This document shows, one piece after another, positions 6,848 through 9,944 of a stretch of DNA of 34,131 nt (position 1 is its first letter; each line of letters opens with the position of its first letter). The notes beneath the pieces are model-generated. The model saw nothing but the letters and a program-made list of their open reading frames with translations. It was not told where the DNA came from and made no database searches. Origin of the DNA: Sporichthya sp. Its GTDB lineage: Bacteria > Actinomycetota > Actinomycetes > Sporichthyales > Sporichthyaceae. A program made the translations under genes and the position numbers. The stretch spans positions 11,384 to 45,514 of the forward strand of contig NZ_JACDFE010000005.1 in NCBI RefSeq assembly GCF_013815995.1. The letters run 5' to 3'.

Positions 6848-7060
6848 TCACGGGTCCTCGAGGCGGAAGCCGAGCTTCATCCCCACCTGGTAGTGGTCGA
6901 GCGCCCCGTCCCGCACGTAGCCGCGGATCTCCGTCACCTCGAACCAGTCGATGTGCCGCAACGTGGCGCTGGCGCGGGCGATGCCGCTCCGGATGGCCTG
7001 CTCGATGCTGTCGGGCGAGGTGCCCACCAGCTCGGTGATCCGGTACGTGCGCTCGGACAT
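6848..7060 (-). CDS. Dodecin (flavin-binding)
   Basis: 70 aa, MSERTYRITELVGTSPDSIEQAIRSGIARASATLRHIDWFEVTEIRGYVRDGALDHYQVGMKLGFRLED matches the dodecin pattern. Confidence 0.92.
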   Translation of the reverse strand: MSERTYRITELVGTSPDSIEQAIRSGIARASATLRHIDWFEVTEIRGYVRDGALDHYQVGMKLGFRLEDP

Positions 7061-7200: not shown

Positions 7201-7518
7201 GTGCACAACAAGGACCGCGGCAAGCCGGGCCAGGAGGTCTACACCGTCTCCGGCGTGCGCTCGAGCCTGACCGACGACGTGAAGCTGCGCACCCGCAAAT
7301 ACGCCTTCTCGATGGCGGTCCGCACCGCCTGCTTCCTCGGCGCGATCGTCACCGAGGGCACGCTGCGCTGGATCCTGTTCTGCGGCGCGATCGTGCTGCC
7401 CTACGTTGCGGTGGTCGCCGCCAACAGTGGCCGGCCGGCGGCCGGAAACGCCCCGCCGCCAGTGCAGCTGCCGCTTCGCACCCAGCTGCCCCCACTTCAA
7501 CCCGAAGAAGGCTCATGA
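7201..7518 (+). CDS. DUF3099 membrane protein
   Basis: YTVSGVRSSLTDDVKLRTRKYAFSMAVRTACFLGA...RWILFCGAIVLPYVAVVAAN typical of DUF3099; GTG start. Confidence 0.8.
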   Translation: MHNKDRGKPGQEVYTVSGVRSSLTDDVKLRTRKYAFSMAVRTACFLGAIVTEGTLRWILFCGAIVLPYVAVVAANSGRPAAGNAPPPVQLPLRTQLPPLQPEEGS

Positions 7519-7556
7519 CTTTCGGCAAACAGCCAGATTCACCCGGGAAACGCGTG

Positions 7557-7652
7557 TAATACTCGCGTCACAGCCTGAAGAAACAGCTGGTCAGGCTCCC
7601 GGAACGCAACGCCGGGCGACTTCCCCCGTGGTCGCCCGGTGTTGCTCTGTTT
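7557..7652 (+). ncRNA. Candidate two-hairpin small RNA with promoter-like sequence and terminator-like 3' end
   Basis: Extended -10-like TGTAATACT (7555-7563); hairpin 1 AGCCTGA/TCAGGCT (7572-7578/7591-7597); hairpin 2 GCAACGCCGGGCGAC/GTCGCCCGGTGTTGC (7606-7620/7631-7645) with C5 loop, then TCTGTTT. Confidence 0.5.
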
Positions 7653-7789
7653 AAGGCGGCCTTCGGCCGCGTCGCGCTACGCGCGCTGGTGGTGACCGTT
7701 CCGGTCTCCCGCTCCTTCGGTCGCGCTCGACCTGCACGCCACACACTCAGCGTGCTCGCATCGGGGGCGCGGCGCCCCGCGTGCTCGCG

Positions 7790-7881
7790 GTCCAGCTCGC
7801 TCCGCTCGCGGACCCCCGGAGTACCGCCTCGCTTGCTCGCGTCCGGCTCGCTCCGCTCGCGGACCCGCGGAGTACCGCCCT
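7790..7881. repeat. Tandem direct repeat (two ~40-nt units, 51-nt period) GTCC(A/G)GCTCGCTCCGCTCGCGGACCC(C/G)CGGAGTACCGCC
   Basis: Near-identical units starting at 7790 and 7841; lies between the sRNA candidate and the moaA stop. Confidence 0.75.
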
Positions 7882-7884
7882 GAA

Positions 7885-8880
7885 CTAACCGCCGATGGCG
7901 GACATGGGGCGGTCGGGCTGCAGGAAGCTCGGGTCGTCGATGCCGTGGCCGGCCTTCTTGCCGCGCATCGCGACCTGCCAGCGCACGGCGAGCTCGGAAT
8001 CGGTGGCACCGGCGCGCATCGCGGCCCGCAGGTCGGACTCCTCGCGGGCGAACAGGCAGTTGCGGACCTGGCCGTCGGCGGTGAGGCGCACCCGGTCGCA
8101 GTCGCCGCAGAACGGGCGGGTGACGCTGGCGATGATGCCCACGGTCGCCGGACCGCCGTCGACGAACCAGCGCTCGGCCGGTGCGGAGCCGCGGATGCTG
8201 GAGGGCTCGGGGGTCAGGTTGTAGCGGCGCTGGAGCTTCTCGAGGATCTCGTCGGCAGTGACCATGTCCGCGCGGTTCCAGCCGTGCTGGGCGTCCAGCG
8301 GCATCTGCTCGATGAACCGCAGCTCGTAGCCACGCTCCAGGCAGAACTGCAGGAGCTTCTCGGGCTCCTCGTCGTTCACGTCGCGCATCAGGACCGCGTT
8401 GACCTTCACCGGGGCCAGGCCGGCATCGGCCGCCGCCGCCATCCCGCGCACGACGTCCTCGAACCGGTCGCGCCGGGTGAGGGTGTGGAAGAGCTCGCTG
8501 TCCACGGTGTCGAGCGAGATGTTGACCCGGTCCAGGCCGGCGTCCTTGAGCGGGCGCGCGAGGCGCTCCATGCCCAGGCCGTTGCTGGTGACCGACATCA
8601 TCGGGCGCGGGTCGAGCTTGGCGACCTCGGAGACGATCCCGACGAAGCCGTTGCGGACCAGCGGCTCGCCGCCGGTGAAGCGGACTTCCTCCACGCCGAG
8701 GCGAGTGACGGCGATGCCGATCAGCCGGACGATCTCTTCGTCCGTGAGCAGCTGCGGCTTCGGCAGCCAGTCCAGGCCTTCGGCCGGCATGCAGTAGGTG
8801 CACCGCAGATTGCACTTGTCGGTGAGCGACACGCGCAGATCCTTGGCCACGCGGCCGTAGGTGTCTGCCAACTTCAGCAA
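7885..8880 (-). CDS. moaA: GTP 3',8-cyclase MoaA (radical SAM)
   Basis: CNLRCTYCMPAEGLDWLPK radical SAM CxxxCxxC; second cluster motif CGDCDRVRLTADGQVRNCLFA. Confidence 0.95.
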   Translation of the reverse strand: MLKLADTYGRVAKDLRVSLTDKCNLRCTYCMPAEGLDWLPKPQLLTDEEIVRLIGIAVTRLGVEEVRFTGGEPLVRNGFVGIVSEVAKLDPRPMMSVTSNGLGMERLARPLKDAGLDRVNISLDTVDSELFHTLTRRDRFEDVVRGMAAAADAGLAPVKVNAVLMRDVNDEEPEKLLQFCLERGYELRFIEQMPLDAQHGWNRADMVTADEILEKLQRRYNLTPEPSSIRGSAPAERWFVDGGPATVGIIASVTRPFCGDCDRVRLTADGQVRNCLFAREESDLRAAMRAGATDSELAVRWQVAMRGKKAGHGIDDPSFLQPDRPMSAIGG

Positions 8881-9170: not shown

Positions 9171-9944
9171 GTGTACCGGTTCCTGCTGACGCCACGGTGG
9201 ATCGCGTTGCTCGTCGTCGCGCTGCTGACGGTGCCCGGCTGCCTGTGGCTGGCCGGCTGGCAGTTCGACCGTTTGCACGACGCCGAGCAGGAGAACTCCC
9301 AGGTGCGGGACAACTCGAAGGCACCGGCGCTGCCGTACGGCGAGCTGTCGCCGGTGGGGTCGGCGGTGAGGCCGGCGGACGAGTACCGAGCGGCGACCGT
9401 GACCGGCCGTTACGACGTCGAGCATCAGCTCTACGTGCGCAACCGCCCGCGCGACGGCAAGCAGGGCCTCCAGATCCTGACCCCGGTCATCACCACGGCC
9501 GGGGCGGCCGCGCTGGTGGACCGGGGCTGGATCAGCGCACCGATCGAGGGCGACCCGGCCCCGCCGGAGACCCCGGCGGGAACGGTCACCGTGACCGGTT
9601 ACCTGCGCCCCACCGAGGACCCCCGTCCGGCCGACGACCTCCCGTCGGCCCAGGTGCTCCGCATCGACGTGCCGGGGATCGCCGCGACGCTGCCCTATCC
9701 CGTCTACGGCGGGTACCTGGAGCTGGCCAGCCAGGAGCCGGCGGTGCCGGTGGTGGACGGCCGGTTCTCCCCCAACCCGAAGGAACTGCCGGATTCGAGC
9801 AGCGAACTGCTGCACCTCTCCTACGGCTGGCAGTGGTACGTCTTCGCGATGATCGGCCCGATCGGGTTGATCCTGCTGGCCCGGCGCGAGGCCGCCGAGC
9901 TGCGGTCCGCGTCAGCGCGCCAGGAGCGCGGGCAGCACGTCTGA
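9171..9944 (+). CDS. SURF1 family protein
   Basis: N-terminal TM with LTVPGCLWLAGWQFDRLHDAEQEN; VTGRYDVEHQLYVRNRPRDGKQGLQILTPV...ALVDRGWI; C-terminal HLSYGWQWYVFAMIGPIGLILLARRE. Confidence 0.9.
   Translation: MYRFLLTPRWIALLVVALLTVPGCLWLAGWQFDRLHDAEQENSQVRDNSKAPALPYGELSPVGSAVRPADEYRAATVTGRYDVEHQLYVRNRPRDGKQGLQILTPVITTAGAAALVDRGWISAPIEGDPAPPETPAGTVTVTGYLRPTEDPRPADDLPSAQVLRIDVPGIAATLPYPVYGGYLELASQEPAVPVVDGRFSPNPKELPDSSSELLHLSYGWQWYVFAMIGPIGLILLARREAAELRSASARQERGQHV

Follow-up and report, generated by a model that had tools for sequence, protein, structure and literature searches.

In the window (the whole stretch of 34,131 nucleotides analysed here), a gap between the convergent genes for a DUF3099 membrane protein and MoaA extends to position 7884 and holds, at its DUF3099 end (7555-7652), an extended -10-like element followed by two hairpins, one of 7 bp and one of 15-16 bp that resembles a terminator and has the loop CUUCCCCCGUGG. 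The initial annotation had described the flanking genes as convergent and had named these elements, CCCCC loop and tail included; all were found again at the same positions, with DUF3099 on the plus strand and moaA on the minus strand. The features of the locus are as follows.

6848-7060, minus strand: dodecin gene, a conserved neighbour that adjoins the RNA where DUF3099 is missing
7201-7518, plus strand: DUF3099 membrane-protein gene (PF11298, E 1.4e-20), a conserved neighbour directly upstream of the RNA
7548-7571, plus strand: 24-bp block AAACGCGTGTAATACTCGCGTCAC, which all three genomes of the genus share unchanged and which covers the promoter and the RNA start
7555-7563, plus strand: extended -10-like element TGTAATACT, with a predicted transcription start at about 7570
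7572-7597, plus strand: hairpin 1, AGCCTGA (7572-7578) with TCAGGCT (7591-7597), 7 bp and a 12-nt loop, from folding and alignment
7606-7645, plus strand: terminator-like hairpin 2 of 15-16 bp, better conserved than any other part of the RNA, with the arms GCAACGCCGGGCGAC (7606-7620) and GTCGCCCGGTGTTGC (7631-7645) and CCCCC in its loop
7621-7630, plus strand: loop of hairpin 2, UUCCCCCGUG, near-invariant between families and the proposed mRNA-pairing seed
7646-7653, plus strand: U-rich tail TCTGTTTA, with a predicted 3' end at about 7650-7653
7885-8880, minus strand: moaA, the far-side neighbour, usual but dispensable
9171-9944, plus strand: SURF1 gene, the outer member of the conserved neighbourhood

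No -35 element was found in front of the window's -10. A dyad, ACGCG-N9-CGCGT (7550-7568), surrounds the -10 inside the 24-bp block, is shared without change by the three genomes of this genus and could be an operator for a regulator of the sRNA promoter. By eye, CTCGCTCCGCTCGCGGACCC...GGAGTACCGCC-type repeats can be made out at 7730-7880, in the stretch that separates the RNA from moaA.

The RNA segment has a folding energy of -46 kcal/mol, which a comparison with 200 dinucleotide shuffles places at z = -5.0. Hairpin 2 alone in the window combines 14 or more pairs with a loop of 4-12 nt, and its GC stem (7606-7645) is followed by a U run (tail TCTGTTTAAG), as in an intrinsic terminator; the window's U tract is weak, and some relatives have longer ones on the same strand as the RNA. 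A terminator scan of the window gave one match against 0.9 expected. Because shuffled windows hold 0-2 such stems, a single strong hairpin is not rare in DNA this rich in GC and is weak evidence by itself, so weight was placed on comparison; the decisive evidence comes from conservation, synteny and covariation.

Conservation, synteny and covariation

The window's genome has four relatives in its family (G001-G004), two of them congeneric. The 24-bp block over the -10 and the RNA start is the same in both congeneric genomes while the surrounding DNA differs; the terminator loop is likewise identical, and the stems differ by paired changes (GCAACGCCGGGCGAC/GTCGCCCGGTGTTGC against GCGAACCGGGGCGGC/GCCGCCCCGGTTCGC). 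When 395 class genomes were searched at the plain DNA level, the inspected matches lay mostly in the dodecin/DUF3099/moaA/SURF1 neighbourhood. Eight relatives, all from other families than the window's, went into a covariance model, R1, which detected the window copy at 46.6 bits (E 1.9e-7, or 1.4e-6 in its own genome) and matched 148 of the 395 class genomes and 58 of 138 genera, all five genomes of the window's family included. A phylum-wide draw of 297 genomes gave 12 matches, 11 of them within the class (one marginal) and one, marginal, outside it. Carriers include Yinghuangia soli (L014), Mangrovactinospora gilvigrisea (L081), a Catenulispora MAG (L026), Kribbella sandramycini (L013), a Frankiaceae MAG (L028) and a Nocardioides (L040); a large carrier group from one genus (f18/g19) is probably Streptomyces, judging by the nearest named relatives. 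No convincing paralogue was found in the window's own genome, and when named genomes were searched with moaA as the anchor, the dodecin/DUF3099 neighbourhood and the RNA were both missing from most loci in Micromonospora and Pseudonocardiaceae. Single hairpins with the loop CUCCCCCCGUGG and different neighbours also matched the model in families f37 and f48 (L193:2487-2562, L194:2473-2566 and L195:2495-2590); these are doubtful relatives, or a different C-loop RNA, and were excluded from the alignment.

The conserved gene order is dodecin (-), DUF3099 (+), RNA (+), moaA (-) and SURF1 (+). Across the inspected loci, from 17 families, the RNA nearly always adjoins the dodecin, DUF3099 and moaA genes, and the window copy has this location, beside dodecin and DUF3099 and, as is usual, with moaA and SURF1. 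DUF3099 is the commonest neighbour; the RNA follows it or, in loci that lack it (family f13 and others), adjoins dodecin, and several fetched loci are without moaA. In one genus (L173:2333-2423, L202:2430-2518) the RNA adjoins TldD/PmbA peptidase genes instead of dodecin and DUF3099. No mention of DUF3099, nor of the scr18xx names guessed for this locus, was found in the literature searched.

These arrangements bear on two alternative explanations. Hairpin 2 might be a mere intrinsic terminator, perhaps bidirectional, of DUF3099 and moaA, as its place between convergent genes, its strong GC stem and its detection by the terminator scan at about the chance rate would allow; but the hairpins remain where DUF3099 or moaA does not adjoin them and also after relocation, and since the RNA outlives the loss of either neighbour, this reading is hard to sustain. 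Most relatives moreover have a -10 in the stretch that separates the hairpins from DUF3099. A terminator does not depend on a set loop sequence, whereas the loop of hairpin 2 is near-invariant across families; hairpin 1 covaries, and some relatives carry the loop two or three times. We therefore regard a terminator without an RNA of its own as quite unlikely. Alternatively, the RNA could be cut from the 3' UTR of the DUF3099 mRNA, with or without a promoter of its own, which would suit its start about 50 nt past the DUF3099 stop codon on the same strand and the frequency of DUF3099 as a neighbour. The conserved -10 elements and the retention of the RNA in genomes with no adjoining DUF3099 make such an origin improbable.

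Covariation was assessed in 57 distinct sequences (alignment A4), in which 96.0% of cells are standard pairs, and 25 of the 27 pairs have changed on both sides. The covariation score reached 0.41, compared with 0.06-0.10 for slid partners; as A4 was fitted to the model's structure, these values are biased towards that structure. A gapless check anchored on the loop alone (27 distinct hairpins) gave 98.9% paired positions, and its loops were exclusively UUCCCCCGUG, UCCCCCCGUG or UGCCCCCGUG. The CCCCCGU terminator loop thus hardly varies while its stem changes, and the window's CUUCCCCCGUGG (7620-7631) fits the family pattern (C/U/G)CCCCCGU. A -10 of the form TGN(A/C)A(T/G)A(C/A)T, from which a promoter is predicted, precedes the RNA in most of the 57 aligned relatives.

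The number of CCCCCGU-loop hairpins per RNA differs between lineages: one in the window, two in Streptomyces-like genomes and three in family f16. Hairpin 1 covaries in the relatives and is kept in the window's genus, where it has no C5 loop; in many families it bears a second, UCCCCCGU-type C loop, and no loop but that of the terminator is universal among the copies. In family f16 (L171-L176, L201-L203) all three loops contain CCCCCGU, with a TANNNT-type -10 ahead and a U-rich tail behind, and the extra hairpin shows compensatory changes. Family f13 (L095-L107) has an ACGGGGG(G) stretch upstream of hairpin 2, complementary to the CCCCCGU loop, which on sequence complementarity might form a self-pairing switch.

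That the conserved, structured RNA at 7555-7652 is real seems to us close to certain. The initial annotation read it as a stand-alone sRNA of about 80 nt with two stem-loops, a reading it would have abandoned had orthologous gaps lacked conservation or compensatory changes; in the relatives' intergenic regions the predicted -10, the two hairpins and the terminator loop are all retained and compensatory changes are numerous, which supports the reading.

Relation to 6C and other C-rich-loop RNAs

An RNA of this design invites comparison with 6C RNA (RF01066), known as B11 in mycobacteria and as scr3559 in Streptomyces coelicolor. Both are actinobacterial sRNAs with two GC hairpins and C-rich loops (in many of our relatives), the second hairpin being the terminator, and the loop in both likely pairs with G-tracts near ribosome-binding sites. 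They differ in that 6C has two stem-loops each with at least six C, whereas the window has one C-rich loop, with five; in the relatives the loop is usually C5 with constant flanks (UUCCCCCGU), C6 occurring in loop 2 of Streptomyces-like copies, and there are one to three C loops.

The Rfam check suggested in the initial annotation was run with Rfam 15 on the window and 29 relatives, and no family was reported at the gathering cut-off. The existence of many relatives with two C-rich-loop hairpins, and a best permissive 6C score of 26.2 bits in a Streptomyces-like copy, might suggest a diverged 6C RNA; yet every scanned copy stays below the 47-bit cut-off, and the window copy is unmatched by the 6C model even at E 10. 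In G001-G004 a true 6C RNA scores over the cut-off at a separate locus, as it does in other genomes, while the RNA described here lies at dodecin/DUF3099. Since true 6C is a separate gene in four sister genomes, identity with 6C was rejected; that the RNA is a diverged 6C is very improbable, orthology being refuted, and a shared origin through an ancient duplication is possible. The initial view, that the RNA is 6C-like in style and not a clear member, accords with these results. In the draft genome of the window (G000) no 6C over the cut-off was detected, though the relatives have one, through either loss or an assembly gap.

Streptomyces RNA 3202 (RF02833) likewise has two hairpins and C-rich loops, but the Streptomyces-like copy reaches 21.1 bits with this model, against a cut-off of 52, and is seen only at a permissive threshold. 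The weak 6C and Scr3202 scores reflect a shared style and possibly a remote kinship. A study of conserved, highly expressed Streptomyces sRNAs (Moody 2013, PMC3765725) describes C-rich loops in scr1434/sar6912/svr1031 and scr5583/sar2652/svr5279, and the RNA may already stand in such Streptomyces RNA-seq lists, unnamed or under an scr number.

Proposed mechanism and meaning

Our preferred reading, to which we give a probability of about two in three, is that the locus encodes a stand-alone trans-acting sRNA of about 80 nt with the terminator loop as its mRNA-pairing seed; its transcription and its action in trans are inferred. It is proposed that the regulatory sRNA gene runs from 7570 to about 7652 on the plus strand, and that it would be transcribed from its own extended -10 promoter just past DUF3099, with hairpin 2 serving as the RNA's own intrinsic terminator. 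The constant part of the family would be a rigid GC stem displaying the loop UUCCCCCGU, in which the exposed C5 would nucleate base pairs with ACGGGGGAA-like G-tracts that lie within or close to ribosome-binding sites, so that translation would be blocked and the mRNA left open to RNases; copies in other lineages that carry further hairpins with this loop would have additional binding sites.

This proposal is modelled on 6C/B11, whose C-rich loops bind G-tracts within the 5' UTRs of targets by base pairing (PMC10470900, PMC12395582). For the C-rich terminator loop of this RNA in mycobacteria, a block of translation and exposure of the mRNA to RNases have been shown. In M. marinum B11 the C-rich terminator loop is the mRNA-pairing seed (PMC12395582), and in M. 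abscessus B11 either loop is sufficient (PMC10470900). By this analogy the invariant terminator loop is the likely seed, and the RNA most likely switches off mRNAs by C-rich-loop pairing.

The putative target pattern ACGGGGGA was counted upstream of start codons in three genomes, where 27, 37 and 38 sites were found, compared with 31, 35 and 25 for the control CAGGGGGA. An example of such a site lies before an SPFH/Band-7 protein gene (L257). A reversed-pattern control alone gave an apparent tenfold excess, and this enrichment was rejected because the better control is equally common; targets are thus not demonstrated by this pattern.

The repetition of one loop would also suit a decoy or sponge RNA. 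The GGA hairpins of CsrB and RsmY bind CsrA, and CCCCCGU hairpins could similarly titrate a protein, in keeping with the same loop recurring on differing stems one to three times per RNA. However, the locus suggests no protein partner and none is known, the window copy has a single such loop, and the nearest studied analogue, 6C/B11, acts through mRNA pairing (PMC10470900, PMC12395582), which leaves this role unlikely and the pairing sRNA as our working interpretation.

To our knowledge, the usual sRNA chaperones are largely lacking in actinobacteria, and few of their sRNAs are understood. More tentatively, at somewhat less than even odds, a class-wide sRNA family that gains and loses identical CCCCCGU modules could be a global regulator that works without Hfq, alongside 6C but distinct from it; such a regulator is perhaps linked to the physiology of its neighbours, that is, flavin storage by dodecin, moaA and SURF1.

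The family is new to Rfam, and its C-rich-loop design resembles that of the known 6C/B11. It probably is a genuine regulator that has hardly been studied, widespread in actinobacteria and absent from Rfam 15. If the proposal is true, it would be a second family of C-rich-loop sRNAs beside 6C, present in about 40% of the genera sampled in the class (Streptomyces apparently among them), and its naturally occurring versions with one, two or three identical loops would allow the relation between loop number and regulatory strength to be tested.
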